Shown: positions 4,845 to 17,539 of the stretch, one piece after another
Layout: every line of letters starts with the position of its first letter
Position numbering within the stretch: the first letter of the stretch is position 1
Assembly (NCBI GenBank): GCA_947365485.1
Contig: CANAXK010000012.1
Span: 1-17,539, forward strand
Reading direction: 5' to 3'
From: an uncultured bacterium
Lineage (GTDB): Bacteria > Cyanobacteriota > Vampirovibrionia > Gastranaerophilales > Gastranaerophilaceae
DNA length: 17,539 nt
Translations under genes and position numbers: made by a program
Notes under the pieces: generated by a model
What the model saw: the letters and a program-made list of their open reading frames with translations, nothing else
What the model was told of the DNA's origin: nothing
Database searches by the model: none

Positions 4845-5453
4845 ATGGCGATATCAGCAATCAATGTAGAACAGACACCTTCTTTCAGGGGTAAATGGGA
4901 CAGGACGGATAAGGGAACACCTTATTATAAGACGAATGTAGGGCTTAAAGCTGGTGCTGTTATGGCTGTTCCTGCTGCATTATTTTGGGCTACTCAAAAA
5001 TCTGCAGAAAAACAAATGGATATGCTTAAAAACTTGAATGTTCCGGACGAGTTGTTAACGAATATAAAAGTCGGTGCAGAGCGGGTTTATAAGTACAAGT
5101 ATTTGTTTGCAGCAATTGCAGCTGTTTCATCTGTGGGTTGTGGTATCTTGATTGATTATTTGAGAAACAAAAAAGCGCAGGAGACTGCTGATGCTGCCAA
5201 AGCAAACGGGGCAAAAGCTGTTTTAATGTCAGATGAATCTGTTGAGCTTTCCAGAAAAAGGCGCGCTTATTATAAGTCTGGCGAGGGATTTAAGCTGGGT
5301 GGTGCATTAGGTGCAGTATGTGGCTTGATGCATGGCGCAATGGCCAGCAAAACTTTTAGTATCGGAAGCGCTATTATTTTGGGTTTGGGCGGTTTAGCAA
5401 TGGGATCAATAGTAGACCATTACACTAACAAAGATGCACACAAACATGCTTAG
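4845..5453 (+). CDS. Glycine-rich membrane orphan, 202 aa, with FRGK motif
   Basis: I do not recognise this protein. The start is supported by AAGGA (4834-4838), 6 bases before the ATG. There is no signal peptide. The N-terminus holds TPSFRGKWD (FRGK at 14-17). Four hydrophobic, Gly/Ala-rich segments are visible (about 33-49, 86-104, 150-167 and 171-190). The last two form a glycine-zipper-like hairpin (GGALGAVCG, ILGLGGLAMG). Between them lies a basic loop with SRKRRAYYKSGEG. The C-terminus is histidine-containing (DAHKHA). It is most likely an inner-membrane protein of unknown role. It stands alone between cysE and the zinc-ribbon gene. A TTGACA lies at 4800-4805, but no -10 element is correctly spaced from it. 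Confidence 0.7.
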   Translation: MAISAINVEQTPSFRGKWDRTDKGTPYYKTNVGLKAGAVMAVPAALFWATQKSAEKQMDMLKNLNVPDELLTNIKVGAERVYKYKYLFAAIAAVSSVGCGILIDYLRNKKAQETADAAKANGAKAVLMSDESVELSRKRRAYYKSGEGFKLGGALGAVCGLMHGAMASKTFSIGSAIILGLGGLAMGSIVDHYTNKDAHKHA

Positions 5454-7912: not shown

Positions 7913-8491
7913 ATGTCAGAAGATTTCAGAGTCGATAAAGGCCAGGTTCCTAATGCAGCGCCGCAGCCGGAGAACAATTCCCAGGGCGGAGGCAAGGTTA
8001 TTGATGAGGCCAATTACAGAATCCATGCACCGAGAGAAAGCGGGCCGACTGCGGTCGGGCGTGGTGGCGACCCATTGTTCAGGCGTATTAATGCTTCCAG
8101 AGAACAGCTTTTGGATTTAATGGAAGAAACCCAGACAGTGCAGGATTGGGTGCAACGTGAGACCTGCAACAATGTTGCGATTTCATGTCTGGATAACGAG
8201 AACCTGAAAGAAATCTATTACGAGATTAAAGATGGATTTGGCGAGTATGGAAAGATTTCGCTGATGGGGTTCAAAACTCCGTCCGGAGTAGAAATCCCGC
8301 GGCTCAAGGTTTATGACAAAGACGGAGAAGTCTTGCAGGTCTTAACAGGGCCTATGGCGATTGATGAGCTCAACAGGCGCGCTATCGCGTTTAGAGAGTC
8401 GGTGAGCGAATACCAGACTGTCGCAGCAGGAGAAGATCAAGAAGGTGTTATTCCTGATTACTCCGGTAATCCTGACGACTATGCTACTTAG
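7913..8491 (+). CDS. Orphan soluble protein, 192 aa
   Basis: I do not recognise this protein. The ATG at 7913 is chosen because AAGGAG (7900-7905) lies 7 bases upstream; the in-frame ATG at 7892 precedes that site. The first 50 residues are polar and probably disordered (asparagine, proline and glycine rich). A compact region (about 52-165) alternates predicted helices and strands (DLMEETQTVQDWV, EIYYEIKDGFGEYGKISLMGF, IPRLKVYDKDGEVLQVLTG), and the tail is acidic. No membrane segment, signal peptide or catalytic motif is visible. Its stop lies 8 bases inside the end of the convergent ATPase gene. Confidence 0.7.
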   Translation: MSEDFRVDKGQVPNAAPQPENNSQGGGKVIDEANYRIHAPRESGPTAVGRGGDPLFRRINASREQLLDLMEETQTVQDWVQRETCNNVAISCLDNENLKEIYYEIKDGFGEYGKISLMGFKTPSGVEIPRLKVYDKDGEVLQVLTGPMAIDELNRRAIAFRESVSEYQTVAAGEDQEGVIPDYSGNPDDYAT

Positions 8492-11432
8492 TGCCTTTTT
8501 TAAGCACTATTCCGTTAAGTTTGCAGAAGGAAGTCAGAATCGCAAGCTCGTCTCGGATTTTTTTCTGGAGTCTGATGTGGTCTGATACTATGCCGACATT
8601 CTTTGCAAGCTGGAACATTTTGAGCGCCTGCTTGATGTACTCACCCCTATGCGCAGTCTTTGGAAGCGCAAGCTCCTGATAGAATTTTGAGTACTGGATG
8701 TAGTCTTTTACGAGAATGTTCTCAAGGTTGAACTGCTTGGCAACGAAAATAGATTTTTCAATATAGACTTTTGCAGAATCAAAGTCCTGTTTTGCCATGT
8801 AGATTTCGCTTATAAGCTTGTTAAACAGCGCTATGAAGTAGTAGTTGTTAATGTTTGGACCCTGCGCAATGTCGAGCGCTTTGTTTGCTATATCAAGCGC
8901 AAACTGGGTTCCTTTTGTGACAAGCTTGATTTCCGCAATCAGGTACCACGAAAGCAGCACACCTGTTGCAACTTTTTCCTTTGCAAAATACGCAACCTGC
9001 TCTTCAAGAATCTCGAGTGCTTTTTTCGTCTCGTTCTTGTCCTTTAGCATCTTGGCAAGCAGGGTTTTTAAAATATTCTTTGTGAAGCTGTCGTTCACAT
9101 TGTTTGCATAGGCAACTACGTTGAAAAGCTCTGTATACAGGCTGTTGTAGTCCTTGTCAATGAACTTGTTAACAATATCAATGAAGTTCCATCTTGAGAT
9201 TATGTAGGAGTCCATATTGTCAAGCGTGTACTCCTTAAGAATATCGTCGAGGATTCTTGAGGACGTTTTAGTGTCGCCCTTAATTGTGTTGGCAAGCGCA
9301 AGTGAAAGATGTGCCTTGCAAATAACAGAAGGTTCGGTAATCTGGTTTTTCTCAATAATGTCAAAAATGAGCTTGACTACGTCAAACATCCTGCTGTCAC
9401 CCTGAAAAGTCAGGGCTTCTGCAAAGTCAAAATAAACGTCAATCCAGATTTTGTAAAGCTCTTTTATGCTTATTACGCGTTGGTTCTTGCCCTTTGAAAG
9501 ATATTTTTCAAACATCGGCATAATCTCTGTGTCAATGAGATTGATAACCTGCCCGTAGTTTCCGAGCTTGAGCATCGGCCTTACCTGTCTTGACTTGACG
9601 AGCGTGCGCGCAAGCTCCATATCCTCCGGAAGTTTGTTCAAAACGCTATCTGCGCACTCGATTGCGCCCCAGTAATTTCCGCTCTTCATCGCGCAGGAAG
9701 CAAGGTAACCAAGGAGCTCAATGTGTTCAAATTCTTCGTTATCTTCCAGCATCATAACTGCTGTTTGAAGGTACCCAAACGCAGCCTCATGGTCAATCGG
9801 TTCAAGGAGCTTGCCCACTCTTGTGTTAATATTCTTCTTTATTTTCTGGTGAAATGGGCTGTTCTTGTGCTCAATGAGCTTGAGTGCTTGTTTTTGTGAA
9901 ATAATATAGAGCCCGATATCTCCGATGTATGCAGCCTGCTTCATAAGAAGCGTCCAGATGTTGAACGCCTGCTCTTCGTTTTTGAGCTTCTGCACAATGT
10001 AGCCAAGAAGCGCGACTGACGATTGTTTGTATATGCTCAAAGTTTCATAAAGAATGTTGAGAATATCTTCAAAGCAGTCGTCGTTCTTTACAATCGAGAC
10101 AATAATCTTCCAGGTTGCAGAAGTCTTGAACTCAAACGACAGGTTGTTAATCTGAGAGATGAATCCGAGCTGCGCGAGCCTTTCTATTGTTCTTTCAAAC
10201 TCCTGAGGCGGGTTGTTGTCAAAGTGCTCAAGCATTGCAGGGTAGAACTTCGGCCCCAGAACAGACATCGCAACCAGCATTCTGTATGAGTTGTAATCTT
10301 CCTGCTTAAGTATTCCGAGCCGAGCGTCGATTATTGATTCGAGCGAGTTGTAGTTGACCTGTTTTAGCCCGCCTCTTGAGATGTCTTTGCTAAGAAGAAC
10401 CATCTGCTCAACAACAGAAGGATTTCCGGCTGAAACCTTTGTTGCGTGTCTTATAAATTCTTTTGTGGCTGTAAAATCAATGTACTGCTTGCAAAGAGTC
10501 TCCACCTGCGTTTCTGTAAATGGCGCAATGGTGAGGTCTGTGTAATTCTCTTCATCTAGCTTGGGCGAGGTGATACAGCCCATTGCAGGCTTAGGGTTCT
10601 GATAGATAAGTATGAACTTGCATTTTTCCAGCACAACATCTTCTTTTAGGAGCTCTTTTAGAAAATCAAAAGACATTCCGTCAATGTTCTCAAAGTTGTC
10701 AATAATGAAAACGATTTTCATCTTATCAACAATGGTTAAGAGTATTTTTTTCATTATCTGGAACATTTTTGCCTTGTTAAAGTAGATGTTTTCGTACTTG
10801 TCAAGGTTTTCCGGATAAAGAAAGTTCAGCAAATCCAGAATTTCCGGGTTTGTGAGCAGCGGGAAATCCTGCTTAAAAAATTTTATCGAGTTTTTCTTGA
10901 GCTGGAGCGTGTCAGGACAGAAATTATTTATGTTGAAAAAATTCAATAACACATCCTGAAAATACCCGAACGGCGAAAGCTGGGTGACCTGCGTGCAGGT
11001 GCCTGCAAGCCAGATGAGATTTGCATTTTTAAGCTCGCTTATCGTGTATCTTAGAACAAGGTTTTTGCCCGTGCCACTCTCTCCGCTTATTGATATGATT
11101 CTGGAATCCGCGTCTTTTATTGCGTCAAGAAGCCTTGCTTTGACTTTTTGCTGCGAGTTCTTGTCCGCGTTGTATTCAGGCTTGGGGTTGAATCTCTCGC
11201 GCGGTTTCACAAACTCAAACCCACATTTGCGGCAGGTTCTGGCGTCCGGCATGTTAGCTACACCGCAGTCGCTGCAAAGCTTTAAGAGCACTTTGTGGCA
11301 GCCGGAGCACTCTGTTGCAGTGATGAGGTTGTAGGTTCCGCAGTCTTTACAAAGTGATGCAACTTTCGTGTTACAAAATTTGCATTTTAAGGAGTTATCT
11401 TCTATTTCTTGTTTACACTTTGGACACTGCAT
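8484..11432 (-). CDS. Triple zinc-ribbon STAND/AAA-type ATPase with TPR-like C-terminal half, 982 aa
   Basis: Three zinc ribbons with identical CxxC-10-CxxC spacing open the protein (C3/6/17/20, C28/31/42/45, C53/56/67/70). A P-loop NTPase follows, resembling the AAA_16/MalT class: Walker A GESGTGKN at 117-124 and Walker B VFIIDNFENID near 241-251. Asn replaces the usual Ser/Thr after the P-loop lysine, and Asn follows the Walker B aspartate. From about 480 to 960 the chain is almost all helical with TPR-like pairs (SGNYWGAIECADSVL, KDKNETKKALEILEEQ, AKQDFDSAKVYIEKS). There is no signal peptide or membrane helix and no C-terminal DNA-binding domain as in MalT. AGGA lies 8 bases before the ATG. 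It is third in a minus-strand operon, 14 bases after the acidic helix-turn-helix gene. A regulatory or scaffolding NTPase is likely; the exact role is unknown. Confidence 0.85.
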   Translation of the reverse strand: MQCPKCKQEIEDNSLKCKFCNTKVASLCKDCGTYNLITATECSGCHKVLLKLCSDCGVANMPDARTCRKCGFEFVKPRERFNPKPEYNADKNSQQKVKARLLDAIKDADSRIISISGESGTGKNLVLRYTISELKNANLIWLAGTCTQVTQLSPFGYFQDVLLNFFNINNFCPDTLQLKKNSIKFFKQDFPLLTNPEILDLLNFLYPENLDKYENIYFNKAKMFQIMKKILLTIVDKMKIVFIIDNFENIDGMSFDFLKELLKEDVVLEKCKFILIYQNPKPAMGCITSPKLDEENYTDLTIAPFTETQVETLCKQYIDFTATKEFIRHATKVSAGNPSVVEQMVLLSKDISRGGLKQVNYNSLESIIDARLGILKQEDYNSYRMLVAMSVLGPKFYPAMLEHFDNNPPQEFERTIERLAQLGFISQINNLSFEFKTSATWKIIVSIVKNDDCFEDILNILYETLSIYKQSSVALLGYIVQKLKNEEQAFNIWTLLMKQAAYIGDIGLYIISQKQALKLIEHKNSPFHQKIKKNINTRVGKLLEPIDHEAAFGYLQTAVMMLEDNEEFEHIELLGYLASCAMKSGNYWGAIECADSVLNKLPEDMELARTLVKSRQVRPMLKLGNYGQVINLIDTEIMPMFEKYLSKGKNQRVISIKELYKIWIDVYFDFAEALTFQGDSRMFDVVKLIFDIIEKNQITEPSVICKAHLSLALANTIKGDTKTSSRILDDILKEYTLDNMDSYIISRWNFIDIVNKFIDKDYNSLYTELFNVVAYANNVNDSFTKNILKTLLAKMLKDKNETKKALEILEEQVAYFAKEKVATGVLLSWYLIAEIKLVTKGTQFALDIANKALDIAQGPNINNYYFIALFNKLISEIYMAKQDFDSAKVYIEKSIFVAKQFNLENILVKDYIQYSKFYQELALPKTAHRGEYIKQALKMFQLAKNVGIVSDHIRLQKKIRDELAILTSFCKLNGIVLKKGTK

Positions 11433-11446
11433 TATGCCTATCCTAT

Positions 11447-12661
11447 TTACACCAGAGCAATTATTTCACTCAAAGCTTCCAGTACGCTGCTTTCTGACAT
11501 CTCAAGCTGCTCTGCAATCTGAGGAACAGAAGCGTTTTCTTTGTACTTCAAATTGTAGACTTTGATTATGTTGAGCTCAGGTCTCTTGCTATCAAGGCTT
11601 GAAATCTCTGATGCGAGCTCCTCTGCATCAAGCGTCAAATCTTCTTCCTCATCTTCTGCGTTGAGCCTTGTTGCAAAAAGTGAATAATCCGTTGGAGAAA
11701 AGCTTGAATCGCTCTCTTCCACCGGTTCCTCTTCCGGTGCTTCTTCTAATACTTCAACTGTTTCTTCTTCTTCCAAATCAAGAGAAATTGCAGGCTCTTC
11801 TTCAAGAGGCTCCTCTTCGAGCGTAAACTCTTCAAGGCTAAATTCGTCTTTTTCTGCCTCTTCTGCCTCTTCTGCCTCCGGCTCCTCAATTTCCTCTACT
11901 TCTTCGATTTCTTCTTCCTGAATAGTTAGTTCAGGCTCTTCTTCCGTGAGCTCAAGAACTGCATCCTGCTCTTCTTCAATCTCCGGAATCTCAATTTCGA
12001 GCTCTGTTTCAGGCTCCGGCTCCGGTAAAAGTTCATCTTCTTCAGGAAGCGGTTCTTCTTCAAGGCTTGAAACAGGCTCAAATGCTGATAAATCAGTAAA
12101 ATCTGTGCTGATAAATTCTTCTGTTTCTTCTTCTTTCTCTTCCTCTTTTACTTCAAGGACTTCCGGAATTTCCTGAATCTCTTCTTCCGGTTCTGGTTCA
12201 AGCTCCAGAGTTACCTCTGGCTCTTCGATAACTTCTTCAATCGGTTCTTCAACCATTATTGGTTCTTTAATTTCAGCAGCCGGTTCTTCTTCTACTACAA
12301 TTTCTTTAAGAAGTGTTTCTTCCTCCTCTTCTTCCGGTTTGGTTTCAAAAGAGGAGTTAATCAAGTTATCAACGTATTCAGTCTTGACATCCGGTTTGAT
12401 AAGCCGTTCGGAAGAAGGACGTCTATACTGGATTTCAGGTATAAACCGCAGTTTTTTAGGCACGGTAATAATTGAGGTCGAAATAACTTTTTCCAGGTAC
12501 GCGTTGATTACTTTCTCGTTATTAATCGAGCCGATAATAACTTCGGAGTGCGCGTAAACATCGTCAATAATTTCGTCCAGAATCGGTTCGTATCCCGGGA
12601 ATTTTTTGTGGTTTCTTACAAGATTTTCGATTAAACCATAGTACTTATTGTCTTTTTCCAT
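11447..12661 (-). CDS. Acidic linker protein with C-terminal helix-turn-helix, 404 aa
   Basis: I do not recognise this protein. Residues 1-105 form a compact, mostly helical region (LVRNHKKFPGYEPILDEIID, INAYLEKVISTSI, VPKKLRFIPEIQYRRP). Residues about 108-345 are a strongly acidic, probably disordered tract of Glu with Pro, Val and Leu (runs such as EEEEEE, EPEPE). The last 30 residues (375-404) read like a helix-turn-helix of the sigma-region-4 type: ASVPQIAEQLEMSESSVLEAL. The purine-rich GGAAGAAGAG serves as ribosome binding site. The gene lies 19 bases after the membrane-protein gene and 14 before the ATPase gene, so the three are one operon. A DNA-binding role rests only on the C-terminal motif; the fold could also mediate protein contacts. 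Confidence 0.8.
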   Translation of the reverse strand: MEKDNKYYGLIENLVRNHKKFPGYEPILDEIIDDVYAHSEVIIGSINNEKVINAYLEKVISTSIITVPKKLRFIPEIQYRRPSSERLIKPDVKTEYVDNLINSSFETKPEEEEEETLLKEIVVEEEPAAEIKEPIMVEEPIEEVIEEPEVTLELEPEPEEEIQEIPEVLEVKEEEKEEETEEFISTDFTDLSAFEPVSSLEEEPLPEEDELLPEPEPETELEIEIPEIEEEQDAVLELTEEEPELTIQEEEIEEVEEIEEPEAEEAEEAEKDEFSLEEFTLEEEPLEEEPAISLDLEEEETVEVLEEAPEEEPVEESDSSFSPTDYSLFATRLNAEDEEEDLTLDAEELASEISSLDSKRPELNIIKVYNLKYKENASVPQIAEQLEMSESSVLEALSEIIALV

Positions 12662-12680
12662 ATAATTCTCTTCTTCCAGT

Positions 12681-14798
12681 TTATAAACGAATAATTAATG
12701 TCGGGTTGCCTTTTAGGTTGGTGAACGAATCTGAGTTTGTGCTAAGATTCATTCCGAGTGCTTTTTGTACGGTTCTCAAAATCAAATCGTCAACACTCTG
12801 TTCACCGCTTGAAGTTGTTACTCCAACCGTTTCAAATTTTCTGCTTGTCGGGTTGTATTTTATCTCAACAGCAATCTTGTTTGTAATCGGAGGCTTGCTT
12901 AACAAAAGAAGCTCTGTTTTTAAGTTAAGCTGAACAATTTTTCCTAGTTTAACAAGGTATCTCTTTGCAGAAGTGTTGTTGGCATATCCACCAGGGACTT
13001 CCCAATCAACCTTGAGGTTGGATACGAGAATAGAAGCGTCAAGGTTTTGCTCAATAGCCGGAATTGATTCTGCTGTCCCTTCGTTAACATTTACAACAGG
13101 CTTTGCAGCCTCAACCGTCTCAACCGGCATAGCCTCTTCGACCTTTGTCTCCTGTGGAATGTCAGGTGCCGGAATCGGTTCTGCTTCCTGAACAAGGTTG
13201 TTTTGAGTATCTTCTGCACCTGTGAATTTTGTGTATCCAAAATACCCGACAGCACCCAAAACTGCAAGAAATCCTGCGATGAGCAATAGCTTGAGCGAGC
13301 TTCCTGATTTCTTGACCGAAGGAATTTCTTCTACTTGCTCTTCCGGATTGTTGAACAGGGCTTCGATTTCTTCTGTCTGCTCTGTTGCTTCATGAGGCTC
13401 CTCGTCAGTTGCAGAAGCCGTATCCTCGCTCTCATCAAGGTTTTCTAACTCTTCGTATACATCAAGGCTTGGTGAAGTAACGGTCTTAAAGTCCTCAAAT
13501 GAAGTATCTTCCTCTTCTTCCTCAACTTGAACCTCAACCTTTTCCGGTTCTTCTTTTGGTATATCAACAACCGGCTCTGAAATCTCTTCAACGATTTCTT
13601 CGCTGCTGTTACTGTCTTCTAAAATTAGGCCTGAAAAATCTTCTTCAACTTCGACTTCAAGCGCAGGTTCTTCTACCAAAACAGGCTCTTCAACCGCTGC
13701 TTGCTCAAACCCGCTCGGGAAAGATTCTTCCGGAGCGTCTGTAACAAATTTTATGCTGTCAATATCAAAATCAGCCATCTGGATTTGAGGCTCCTCAGTC
13801 TCCTGTTCTTCAACAGTCTCTTCTTCAACTGTTTCAACAATATCGTCTCTGTCAAAATCAAGGCTTATTTCTGCAGACTCTTCAAGCAGGCACGTTTCTT
13901 CAAGCGGCTGAATTTCGTTAGCCGGTTCTACGTCTGCAAATCCGATAACCTCGTCTGTGCTTTCTTCAAGCAGAGCTTCTGTTTCCACTGGCTCATCAAG
14001 TGTTTCTTCAAGAGTAAAAGAAGCACCTTCTTCCATCAAGTCAAGAGGAGTAGCTTCCATAGATCCGAAGTCATCTTCTTCCTGCGGTGCCTCTAAAAGG
14101 TCGGTTGTTTCTTCTTCTTCTGCTGCTGCTTCAACTGTCGCCTCGGCTTTCGGTTGGGCAACTGAAACAAAGTTGAAAACATATTGCGCTTTCGCGGTTT
14201 TTGCGAGTCTCAATCTGCCGTCTTTTGATGCGATGAGTTCGCGGTAGAACTCATTCTTGTCCGCTATTGTGCCGTCAAGGTAAGCAAAGATGTCTTTGTC
14301 TTCAACAGCGTAGGTGTCTTCTTCCGCAATCAGGTGGGATTCTATATCGTAGAATGAAACGAGCGAATCGTATTCAACAGGGTAGAATCCGCTTATTTCT
14401 TTTGAGGTATCAATGTTTTCAGGGAGAATGAACCCGACGACTGTCGCGCCTGAAAGGTCTTCGGTTACCTTTATAAACATGTAGGCTGCCGGAGTCAGGT
14501 TGTTATCAAAATGCGATTTCGGAACCCCAAATTCTTCTTCGTTAAAGAAGACACGAACATCAATGTACGCGTTGTTTACGTAGATGTCTGCAATATCAAT
14601 ATCGTTCAAGATGTTTGCAATATTGTGGAGTCCTGATTCAAAATCTGCGTTTTCCGATTCAAAAAACTTCGGTGCAATATTTGCTGCTATGGCGTTTGCA
14701 ATGGCTCTGTTTCTGACACCCGTTTCTTGTATTGTTTTACATATTTCCTGTGCCAGCTCTAAATCTTTCTCTTCTATTAAAAAGTTATCAGTATTCAC
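12681..14798 (-). CDS. Membrane protein with long acidic cytoplasmic part and TonB/TolA-C-like end, 705 aa
   Basis: I chose the GTG at 14798 because GGGAGAG (14806-14812) lies 7 bases upstream. In-frame starts further up (ATG at 14834, TTG at 14870) lack a ribosome binding site. Residues 1 to about 215 look folded, alternating helices and strands (AQEICKTIQETGVRNRAIAN, DIYVNNAYIDVRVFF, YMFIKV, VVGFILP). About 218-495 is acidic and disordered. One membrane helix lies at about 503-522 (LKLLLIAGFLAVLGAVGYFG), preceded by lysines, so the N-terminal part is probably cytoplasmic. A Pro/Glu linker leads to a terminal domain (about 588-705) with VTTSSGEQSVDDLILRTVQKAL. That stretch resembles the SSG...LD...A...V pattern of TonB/TolA C-terminal domains. 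The similarity is by eye only. Function unknown; first gene of the operon. Confidence 0.82.
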   Translation of the reverse strand: MNTDNFLIEEKDLELAQEICKTIQETGVRNRAIANAIAANIAPKFFESENADFESGLHNIANILNDIDIADIYVNNAYIDVRVFFNEEEFGVPKSHFDNNLTPAAYMFIKVTEDLSGATVVGFILPENIDTSKEISGFYPVEYDSLVSFYDIESHLIAEEDTYAVEDKDIFAYLDGTIADKNEFYRELIASKDGRLRLAKTAKAQYVFNFVSVAQPKAEATVEAAAEEEETTDLLEAPQEEDDFGSMEATPLDLMEEGASFTLEETLDEPVETEALLEESTDEVIGFADVEPANEIQPLEETCLLEESAEISLDFDRDDIVETVEEETVEEQETEEPQIQMADFDIDSIKFVTDAPEESFPSGFEQAAVEEPVLVEEPALEVEVEEDFSGLILEDSNSSEEIVEEISEPVVDIPKEEPEKVEVQVEEEEEDTSFEDFKTVTSPSLDVYEELENLDESEDTASATDEEPHEATEQTEEIEALFNNPEEQVEEIPSVKKSGSSLKLLLIAGFLAVLGAVGYFGYTKFTGAEDTQNNLVQEAEPIPAPDIPQETKVEEAMPVETVEAAKPVVNVNEGTAESIPAIEQNLDASILVSNLKVDWEVPGGYANNTSAKRYLVKLGKIVQLNLKTELLLLSKPPITNKIAVEIKYNPTSRKFETVGVTTSSGEQSVDDLILRTVQKALGMNLSTNSDSFTNLKGNPTLIIRL

Positions 14799-14829
14799 TA
14801 AAACACTCTCCCATTTTAAGTTTAATAAT

Positions 14830-14857
14830 ATCATATTATTTAAAAAAAATCTATAAA
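14830..14857 (-). promoter_or_regulatory. Weak candidate promoter of the three-gene minus-strand operon
   Basis: On the minus strand TATGAT (14835 down to 14830, 5 of 6 consensus bases) lies in a very AT-rich stretch. A poor -35 TTTATA (14857-14852) is 16 bases upstream. The start would be near 14823, about 25 bases before the GTG and just ahead of the GGGAGAG ribosome binding site. The A/T tract makes chance matches likely. Confidence 0.3.
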
Positions 14858-14984
14858 TAAAGAGTGGCAATTCATCTGTTTGACTTATTTCTAAAAATAA
14901 TTAAACCATTTGGTGTATATTTCAGATTAATAACTAAAGATTATGAACCATTTGTTCGTCATACAGAGTGAAAGGACTGTTGGT

Positions 14985-15659
14985 ATGTTTTCATCCATGA
15001 TACAAAATTTATTATCGTCATCCGGCAAATCGAGTGCAATGCAGCGCGCTGTCCAGATGAATAACTATGTTAATAACCTTAATGCTGAATGGACTCCTGT
15101 TGAAAAAAAAACTCAAGGTCAGGAAACAGTTCCTTCAAATATCCAACCGTTTGACAGCGTGCTGAAAAGCTCTGCAAAAACAAAATTCGGCGACCTGCTT
15201 ACAAACCCTGCAACAAGGGTTAATGCAAGCCTTTACACAAATACTGCACAAGGTGCAACAACACCCAATGAAAAAATCTCAACAAGAGAGCAAATAAAAG
15301 GACTTGTTTCAAGGGCTGCTAAAAAACACGGTGTGGATGAAAAACTGGTAAACGCGCTTATTAAACAGGAATCAGGATTTAACCCTAACGCAAAATCACG
15401 CGTGGGTGCAATGGGCTTGATGCAGCTTATGCCTGCAACAGCCAAAGGACTCGGGGTTACAAACCCGATGGACCCTGAACAGAACGTGGAAGGCGGAGTC
15501 AAGTACCTTAAATCCATGCTCAACAGATACAACGGAAACGTAATCCTTGCACTTGCGGCGTACAATGCTGGCCCGGGTGCTGTTGACAAGTACGACGGGG
15601 TTCCTCCGTACAAAGAAACGCAGAATTACGTGCGCTCAATACTTGCTAATTACCTCTAA
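14985..15659 (+). CDS. Lytic transglycosylase, SLT (GH23) domain, 224 aa
   Basis: The SLT domain (about 105-224) cleaves the MurNAc-GlcNAc bond of peptidoglycan with formation of 1,6-anhydroMurNAc. The catalytic residue is E129 in ALIKQESGFNPNA. The family motifs GAMGLMQLMPATA (141-153) and AAYNAGPGAVDKYDG (191-205) are intact. Residues 1-100 are polar and probably disordered, with no signal peptide. The layout resembles the leaderless short SLT proteins of Gram-positives and of flagellar systems. I chose the ATG at 14985 because AAAGGA (14971-14976) lies 8 bases before it. An in-frame ATG at 14943 would add 14 residues but has no clear ribosome binding site. The gene is divergent from the acidic membrane-protein operon. 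Its end overlaps the convergent large orphan by 4 bases. Confidence 0.9.
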   Translation: MFSSMIQNLLSSSGKSSAMQRAVQMNNYVNNLNAEWTPVEKKTQGQETVPSNIQPFDSVLKSSAKTKFGDLLTNPATRVNASLYTNTAQGATTPNEKISTREQIKGLVSRAAKKHGVDEKLVNALIKQESGFNPNAKSRVGAMGLMQLMPATAKGLGVTNPMDPEQNVEGGVKYLKSMLNRYNGNVILALAAYNAGPGAVDKYDGVPPYKETQNYVRSILANYL

Positions 15660-17539
15660 GCGCTGGCTTTCAGCTTCTGCTGCGCATTCAATTTGCGCTC
15701 ACGGTCTTGTTTTTCGTGAATCCTGCGGGTATTTTTGTAAGTCAGTCTAGGTATAGCCCAGCCGAGCAGGTATGGAGAAATTAAGAATGTTGTGAGCAAG
15801 CCAGGTACGGAGTTCAAGCCTCTTGCAAACGCTGCAATCTTGTTGCCGCCCTTGCTTCCTGCGCCCTTCATAAGCTTTGCAATCATCTCGTCAAGAGCCT
15901 TCTTGTCTTCGCCTTTGCCCAGCTTTTTGGCGTTTTCCTTGAAGTTTTCAAAGAACGAGATAATCTTCTTGTTCTTGTCAGATTTTGACATGTCCTTGAG
16001 CGAGTTGAAGTCCATTGTGGATTCGTTGAAAACAGTTTTTAACTCTTCTGATTTAGAGATAATTTTCTGTAAATCACCGCCATTTTTGTCAATGTACTTG
16101 CAGAAATTCAACATCTTAGCCTGTGAATCGATTCTGTCGTACAAAGAGGCAATCTCGGCATTTGTCATAACATGGGCTTTTGAATAAGGATTGAATAAAT
16201 CCAGAACGGTTTTTGCTTTGCTCATAGAGCGGTCTTTTTCCATCAAAACAAAACCTGATTTCTTCTCATAAGCTGTAACACATGCCCTTGTTCCCATTGG
16301 CACCGCAAAAACAACAGCAAGGCTGGAGGTCAAATCCCTTATGAAGATTTCGTATAGTTCGGTCAAATCCTTTTTGCCGTTTTCATCCACCTGTGCGCGG
16401 TTATAAGCACGCAATCCTCTAGGTGTCAGAAGCCCGAAGATGGAAAGTCCTGCCATCAAAGAGTTAGTGAAATTGTGTCCGTTGTATTCAAGCTCGGAGG
16501 AGAGTTTTTCGTACTTCTTGCTCGAAGAAATCTTCTTGCCCATTTTTGCAAGCAAATCAGCTTTCTCTTTGCCCTTGAATGTAACATTCTGGTTGCTTTC
16601 AGTCTCTACGTTCTTTCTTGCACCCGGTGCAACGTTGCTTCTTGCGTAAATCTTAGGAAGAACAGATAGTACGCCAAGGGTTGCTGCCATTGTGGAAATG
16701 TTTGTGATTATTCTCTTTGCAATGGAGCGGTTTTTGATATTTTCTGCTGCAAGTACGTCCAGCTTGTCAAGGTGCTTGTTAGCGGTGATTGCGTCGTCAG
16801 TGTACTTCATCATCGCATCAAAAGTATTCTTGGTTGAGAATACTTTTTTGTCAGCGCCCGCCTTAACTTTGCCGAGCATGTTCAAATCTTCTCCGGAAGC
16901 GTATTTTAGATTGTTGATGTGCTCAACAATGTTGTTCATGCACTCGTTTCTGTACTTAGCCTTGCCCCGGAATTTCTTTAATGGGACTCCTGCAGGGATG
17001 TTTTCGTAGTTTGCAAGCTGTTTCATGATGTATTCAACAGAATCCTTGCCCGCGTTTTCCTTGCCAACAGTGTCTGCGAGGATTTTTTCGACGTTGATTC
17101 TATAGAACTCTTGTTTGAACTTGTCAGGTGTTTTGAGTAGCGCTTTGTCAAATTCAGGTTTTGCAATTATTTCTTTGAGATTGTTTCCAAATCGCTTAAT
17201 CAGCTGTGAGTTTACACTGGTTGAGCGCCCGAATTTTGCGGCTATGAGAAGCATAAGAGGAGCAACAGCCATCATACACGGGCCCGTAAGCCCTTCACGC
17301 CCAAAAACTTCCAGTCCTTCCTGTTTATTGTATTTGCCGGTAACTTCCTTGTCGCGCATAAATCCTGCGACAGTACGAGGCGCGGTCATACCAATGCCGT
17401 CCTGAATCAGGAACGAGCCCAGGAATCCCCAGTCTTCAATCTGCTGCATAGCCCTTCCGCTAACGTTCAGTACTCCGGCCATGGATTTGAAATTCGGCGA
17501 TGAAGCCTGTTTCTCCGGTATGATATTATTATGATTATT
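15656..17539 (-). CDS. Large multi-helix membrane-associated orphan (5' truncated by window edge)
   Basis: The frame stays open to the window end, with 19 codons upstream of the first visible ATG (17482). That ATG has no ribosome binding site, and the upstream residues include SPNFKSM, so the true start is probably outside; about 627 residues are visible. I do not recognise the protein. Hydrophobic segments (numbered from 17482) lie near 66-83, 258-280, 340-358, 385-402 and 563-590. They alternate with long Lys-rich helical stretches. A second motif, NVTFKGKEK, sits at about 299-307. A basic tail (KNTRRIHEKQDRERK) follows the last segment. The pattern suggests a membrane-associated scaffold or a secreted/membrane effector-like protein. 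No catalytic motif is seen. It overlaps the convergent lytic transglycosylase gene by 4 bases. Confidence 0.75.
   Translation of the reverse strand, partial: NNHNNIIPEKQASSPNFKSMAGVLNVSGRAMQQIEDWGFLGSFLIQDGIGMTAPRTVAGFMRDKEVTGKYNKQEGLEVFGREGLTGPCMMAVAPLMLLIAAKFGRSTSVNSQLIKRFGNNLKEIIAKPEFDKALLKTPDKFKQEFYRINVEKILADTVGKENAGKDSVEYIMKQLANYENIPAGVPLKKFRGKAKYRNECMNNIVEHINNLKYASGEDLNMLGKVKAGADKKVFSTKNTFDAMMKYTDDAITANKHLDKLDVLAAENIKNRSIAKRIITNISTMAATLGVLSVLPKIYARSNVAPGARKNVETESNQNVTFKGKEKADLLAKMGKKISSSKKYEKLSSELEYNGHNFTNSLMAGLSIFGLLTPRGLRAYNRAQVDENGKKDLTELYEIFIRDLTSSLAVVFAVPMGTRACVTAYEKKSGFVLMEKDRSMSKAKTVLDLFNPYSKAHVMTNAEIASLYDRIDSQAKMLNFCKYIDKNGGDLQKIISKSEELKTVFNESTMDFNSLKDMSKSDKNKKIISFFENFKENAKKLGKGEDKKALDEMIAKLMKGAGSKGGNKIAAFARGLNSVPGLLTTFLISPYLLGWAIPRLTYKNTRRIHEKQDRERKLNAQQKLKASA

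Follow-up and report, generated by a model that had tools for sequence, protein, structure and literature searches.

A probable sigma/anti-sigma envelope-signalling module with an AAA_16/TPR partner in Gastranaerophilales and its eroded form in one genus

Introduction

The SigW/RsiW system pairs an extracytoplasmic function (ECF) group IV sigma factor with a membrane class I anti-sigma factor, and FecR-type cell-surface signalling relies on an inner-membrane anti-sigma factor with a domain outside. Here we have examined three adjoining genes that resemble such systems, in a 17,539-nucleotide stretch of DNA (hereafter, the window) from an uncultured gut bacterium of the Gastranaerophilales. Gene 1 encodes a membrane protein that looks like an anti-sigma factor, gene 2 an ECF sigma homologue with a long acidic insert and gene 3 a protein with zinc ribbons, an AAA_16 domain and TPR-like repeats (Table 1). 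The window is one complete contig of a 1.63 Mb genome in 227 contigs, and the closest of the 25 named gene 3 loci is 98% identical. No description of the trio as an operon was found when an open-access library was searched for DUF1822, Gastranaerophilales sigma factors and Melainabacteria anti-sigma factors.

Like SigW/RsiW, the trio joins sigma2 and sigma4 regions to an adjoining membrane protein whose helical domain resembles that of RsiW and, in sister genera of the window genus, has its own ECF-type promoter. Unlike it, the trio includes an AAA_16/TPR gene as its third member and has DUF1822 and TolA/TonB-like domains, and in the window genus it carries the acidic insert and lacks both an SKRL-like recognition-helix motif and the ECF promoter. 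Gene 1 would share with FecR-type systems the build of an inner-membrane anti-sigma factor with an outer domain; here, however, that domain is TolA/TonB-like, and a TonB-dependent receptor plug domain was found in none of the 11 genus genomes searched. Gene 3 resembles zinc-ribbon-class III cyclase-AAA-TPR proteins, which we take to be soluble adenylyl cyclase-like, in the order of zinc ribbons, AAA_16 and TPR and, in six order homologues, in a degenerate cyclase domain; it differs in that the window family lacks the cyclase domain and has eroded Walker residues. Finally, the cyanobacterial DUF1822-ECF sigma-EACC2/CHAT systems (PMC8195603) also have a DUF1822 gene beside a sigma gene, in the order sigma, DUF1822, CHAT, whereas the trio runs DUF1822, sigma, AAA_16/TPR without CHAT. 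Since cyanobacterial DUF1822 genes adjoin Sigma70_r4_2 genes (15 of 25 upstream neighbours, drawn from 30 loci) and CHAT genes (3 of 3 downstream neighbours scanned), as PMC8195603 also notes, it seems that DUF1822 and sigma factors have long been linked.

Results

Sigma and anti-sigma domains of genes 1 and 2

Because gene 2 is a sigma-70/ECF homologue and gene 1 contains an anti-sigma domain, the core of the locus appears to be a sigma/anti-sigma pair. The preliminary description of this DNA had seen in gene 2 an acidic protein ending in a helix-turn-helix; the acidity stands, and the helix-turn-helix is now recognised as sigma region 4. The protein has sigma2 and sigma4 domains only, the make-up of an ECF sigma factor. 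The linker between them, described in a section of PMC8103513 as under 50 residues, is here replaced by an insert of about 270 residues, whereas the sister-genus proteins measure 184-203 amino acids in all. An SKRL-like basic motif in the recognition helix, defined after inspection of the gene 2 alignment, occurs in 22/22 sister-genus copies vs 0/30 genus copies, and no K or R is left at its positions in any of the 30. Counts of this motif in the group f3 are loose, as the pattern also catches SKK in helix 2 of locus L056.

Gene 1 had been read as a membrane-spanning protein with a large acidic part, and this was borne out by a single hydrophobic segment and net charges of -30 (residues 1-240) and -89 (residues 241-495). 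Its TonB-C-like end is upheld by structure comparison, which gave the TonB/TolA C-terminal fold, and by Pfam matches in relatives; the window protein has no such Pfam match of its own. At the other end, DUF1822 (PF08852) is matched in the homologues L024, L033, L150, L067 and L057 and not in the window protein, which L024 matches at E 3.5e-14. The predicted fold of this domain resembles the PD-(D/E)XK superfamily, whose active site reads D..(D/E)xK; gene 1 has D..DxR. Between these ends lies the helical domain of class I anti-sigma factors. The Hx3Cx2C zinc motif, which a passage of PMC7406223 reports for about 56% of known class I anti-sigma factors, is kept in 10/10 copies from groups f2, f3 and f4 and was found in 3/23 copies from sister genera and 0/30 from the genus. 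With DUF1822, anti-sigma helices, an acidic linker, one transmembrane helix and a TolA/TonB-like end, gene 1 looks like a membrane anti-sigma factor. Its open frame extends beyond the GTG at 14798 up to a TTG at 14870; we placed the start at the GTG because, when 29 upstream regions from the genus were aligned, GGGAGAGTG proved conserved directly before it.

Promoter elements upstream of gene 1

In sister genera, an ECF-type promoter, GGAATATTTT-N9-TG..ATC, was found at the trio operon and rarely elsewhere. GGAATA lies within a conserved block before gene 1 in all 20 of the loci L132-L151; the block is common to f2, f4, f5 and the f6 locus L063 and is not shared by f3 and f7, with the reservation that the matches of L056 and L225 are misplaced and the f3 numbers loose. 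Genome searches with the pattern TGGAATATTTTN{5,11}TGYNNTC gave 57 sites, distributed over 56 of the 107 family genomes searched, vs 9 sites for the reversed control, with 9-base spacing in 51 of the 57 and no site in the 4 genus genomes among the 107. Thirty sites were inspected. Twenty-six had the 9-base spacing, and all of these but the one in L218 head the operon, 22 directly before gene 1 and 3 before a 105-amino-acid frame that precedes it; the 4 sites spaced differently all lie away from the operon. With a stricter pattern, 16 sites turned up across 15 of 78 genomes, and 11 of these lie at gene 1. ECF sigma factors are often autoregulated, as a section of PMC8103513 states. A promoter of this type at their own operon is common without being a general rule. 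The 105-amino-acid frame (MELDKSLAVLAAFEKLYCLE..; L223:5528-5845, also in L224 and L225) precedes gene 1 in one sister genus and lies under the same promoter.

The ECF-type block was found at the operon in 0/29 cases in the window genus. The genus has instead the element TAGATTTT..TATGnTATnAT, for which 22 sites were counted across 21 of the 38 genomes vs 3 for the reversed control; by coordinates 17 sites lie at gene 1 and 4 elsewhere, and 1 was unchecked.

Gene 3 and the erosion of its Walker residues

The preliminary description of gene 3 as a zinc-ribbon P-loop ATPase with TPR-like repeats holds for the domains (DZR E 4e-7, AAA_16 E 2.3e-8, TPR matches under the Pfam cut-offs); its P-loop, however, is non-canonical, and the canonical Walker residues are lost in the genus. 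Walker A reads GKN in 30/31 genus sequences, vs GK[ST] in 16/19 sister and 19/23 order homologues. None of the 31 genus and 19 sister sequences (family 50/50) has the second Walker B acid, which was seen in 20/23 order homologues. The window protein has GKN together with D-N, that is, neither GK[ST] nor the Walker B acid pair.

In six order homologues, the only ones delimitable by a strict P-loop pattern, a stretch of 144 columns lying after the zinc ribbons and before the P-loop could be aligned with true class III cyclase domains at an hhalign probability of 90.5. In a single-profile comparison this stretch matched class III cyclase at E 1.4e-6, and the domain is degenerate. No cyclase domain was matched by Pfam in window gene 3, where 50 residues separate the last CxxC from the P-loop; the window family has no room for one, since the gap is 48-81 residues where measured. 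Separately, a 1098-amino-acid protein (L021:1381-4677, G000:C69) has only the N-terminal zinc ribbons in common with gene 3, and long frames similar to it match in many genus genomes.

Conservation of the trio in relatives

Open reading frame coordinates agree with the three adjoining minus-strand genes first described, which are separated by 19 and 14 bases. The trio was sought in relatives, as had been proposed. In 30 of 34 same-genus genomes the three genes adjoin in the same order on a single contig, with an interrupted or gapped sigma frame in L083 and L085 and with gene 3 leaving the contig end in L077. In G011, G018 and G028 the trio is spread over two contigs with the break inside gene 2, and G006 has gene 3 alone, with an internal stop, at a contig end. 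Among 23 loci fetched from sister genera, 22 also carry the trio (19 of the 20 loci L132-L151, plus L223-L225), the exception being L149, which stops within gene 1. L132-L151 are 20 fetched among 53 same-family genomes with a DUF1822 match and are therefore biased towards recognisable copies. One f5 locus and one f7 locus (L024, L033) hold the trio as well. Genes 1 and 2 adjoin without gene 3 in f2, f3, f4 and the other f7 genome, and do not adjoin in the fetched f6 loci.

Three within-genus comparisons gave non-synonymous differences per site of 0.13-0.43 (gene 3, 0.13-0.15; gene 1, 0.27-0.29; gene 2, 0.30-0.43, with 0.11-0.17 in its sigma2 part), low against saturated synonymous values of 0.75-0.99, which argues that the genes are strongly conserved and not decaying. 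The preliminary description would have dropped the grouping if the genes were not neighbours in relatives or belonged to unrelated well-described families; they do adjoin there, and the families found are functionally linked.

Neighbouring sequences

A lytic transglycosylase gene diverges from gene 1, and a second genus-wide conserved element, about ATCCACTATATGGTTTAAT, lies between the two (window 14798-14943). An SF[RK]G-like N-terminal motif was found in 16 of 271 proteins of 21 loci (the window and L132-L151) vs 2.9 expected from later stretches; the matches, which include window proteins 4845-5453 (+) and 15656-17482 (-), come mostly from one orthologous family, divergent from gene 1. The latter protein, of 608 amino acids, has no Pfam family and has weak homologues in L032, spread over two frames.

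Table 1. Features of the trio and its upstream region (window positions; pLDDT, predicted local distance difference test)
Feature	Positions	Strand	Description	Relatives matched
Gene 1	12681..14798	-	membrane anti-sigma-like protein, 705 aa (amino acids), GTG start	44/57
DUF1822-type N-terminal domain, residues 1-160	14319..14798	-	fold predicted to be PD-(D/E)XK-like; D71, D80 and R82 form a D..DxR signature	
Anti-sigma helical domain, residues 162-223	14130..14315	-	zinc ligands lost	
Disordered acidic linker, residues 224-500	13299..14129	-	pLDDT under 50	
Single transmembrane helix, residues 501-526	13221..13298	-	one hydrophobic segment	
TolA/TonB-like C-terminal domain, residues 596-705	12684..13013	-		
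Gene 2	11447..12661	-	404 aa, homologous to ECF sigma factors; carries an acidic insert	41/57
Sigma2-like domain, residues 1-75	12437..12661	-		
Acidic disordered insert, residues 76-344	11630..12436	-	low pLDDT; whole protein net -110	
Sigma4-like helix-turn-helix, residues 345-404	11450..11629	-	basic recognition-helix motif lost	
Gene 3	8484..11432	-	zinc-ribbon AAA_16/TPR protein, 982 aa	55/57
Zinc ribbons, residues 1-75	11208..11432	-	DZR, Zn_Ribbon_1	
AAA_16 domain, residues 99-264	10641..11138	-		
Walker A GESGTGKN, residues 117-124	11061..11084	-	non-canonical	
TPR-like region, about residues 547-909	8706..9794	-	weak TPR matches	
GGGAGAGTG before GTG start	14804..14812	-	conserved in genus, ribosome-binding-site-like	
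Promoter-like element TAGATTTT..TATGATATTAT	14825..14853	-	genus-specific; conserved across genus upstream regions	

Discussion

The computed homologies, gene order, promoter motif and residue losses lead us to consider it rather probable that the trio is a Gastranaerophilales sigma/anti-sigma envelope-signalling module with an AAA_16/TPR partner, whose form in the window genus now serves as a protein relay or scaffold. The combination was at first thought to be without a described counterpart; a precedent does exist, in a sigma-70/ECF homologue beside a protein with an anti-sigma domain. The outside-to-inside module then proposed, made up of an envelope sensor, an adaptor or regulator and an NTPase hub, fits, although the hub is better called NTPase-like, given the Walker residues lost in the genus.

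Partner binding, topology and signal are here inferred. In sister genera, gene 1 would be a membrane-embedded protein that holds the sigma factor, its TolA/TonB-like domain facing outwards and the DUF1822 and anti-sigma domains inwards. A signal from outside would loosen this hold, and the freed sigma factor, together with RNA polymerase, would fire the ECF-type promoter of its own operon, with the zinc-ribbon protein as a putative assembly or gating partner. In the window genus, where these proteins are retained, the sigma factor lacks the basic recognition-helix motif and has acquired a long acidic insert, a sigma70-like element has taken the place of the ECF promoter and the canonical Walker residues of the ATPase are gone; both DNA reading and ATP hydrolysis have presumably ceased. 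As the residues for these activities are gone while folds and gene order are kept, a protein-protein relay or membrane scaffold is likelier than a transcription switch, and the trio would most likely no longer include a promoter-reading sigma factor.

Gene 2 might alternatively be a working sigma factor of changed specificity that reads TAGATTTT..TATGnTATnAT and uses the acidic insert as a regulatory linker. Two observations weigh in its favour: this element is conserved before gene 1 in the genus and enriched over the reversed control, and the sigma2 and sigma4 parts of gene 2 are still conserved. Nevertheless, the complete loss of K and R at the SKRL positions and an insert far beyond the ECF linker length make retargeting unlikely, and the element resembles what we take to be an extended -10 sigma70 promoter, which we also count against it.

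Defence genes are patchy in distribution, whereas gene 3 is found almost throughout the order and the gene order is stable in the family. This, together with the lack of any CHAT or caspase domain in the trio by Pfam and a defence-library scan that gave only a weak QatD match (E 7.7e-5, 20 bits), makes it very unlikely that the trio serves in defence or programmed death as a relative of the cyanobacterial EACC2/CHAT-DUF1822-ECF sigma conflict systems, despite the STAND-like third gene, the sigma and CHAT neighbours of cyanobacterial DUF1822 genes and the DUF1822 and ECF sigma genes that a part of PMC8195603 describes beside EACC2-caspase genes. We give scarcely any credence to gene 1 being a TonB/TolA-like energy transducer or envelope tether with assembly factors as neighbours; the C-terminal fold and the MotA/ExbB-family proteins in 19/19 genomes would suit this role, but plug domains are missing from the genus genomes searched, and the anti-sigma domain and sigma neighbour would be left unexplained.

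Returning to the sigma/anti-sigma module, we suggest, with less than even confidence, that this genus of gut bacteria keeps, strongly conserved, a pseudo-sigma form of it: an acidic adaptor derived from an ECF sigma factor and no longer able to read promoters, a nuclease-fold DUF1822 anti-sigma factor with a TolA/TonB-like outer end and a non-hydrolysing AAA protein, left by stepwise loss of the cyclase, Walker B, Walker A, the recognition helix and the ECF promoter, the complex persisting as an envelope relay. Pseudo-enzymes are well known; to our knowledge, pseudo-sigma factors are much less so. The change lends itself to direct testing, since an apparently working form in sister genera and the eroded form in this genus are both available for comparison. 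DUF1822 is common in cyanobacteria; by these results it is probably a component of an anti-sigma factor and may have a nuclease fold.
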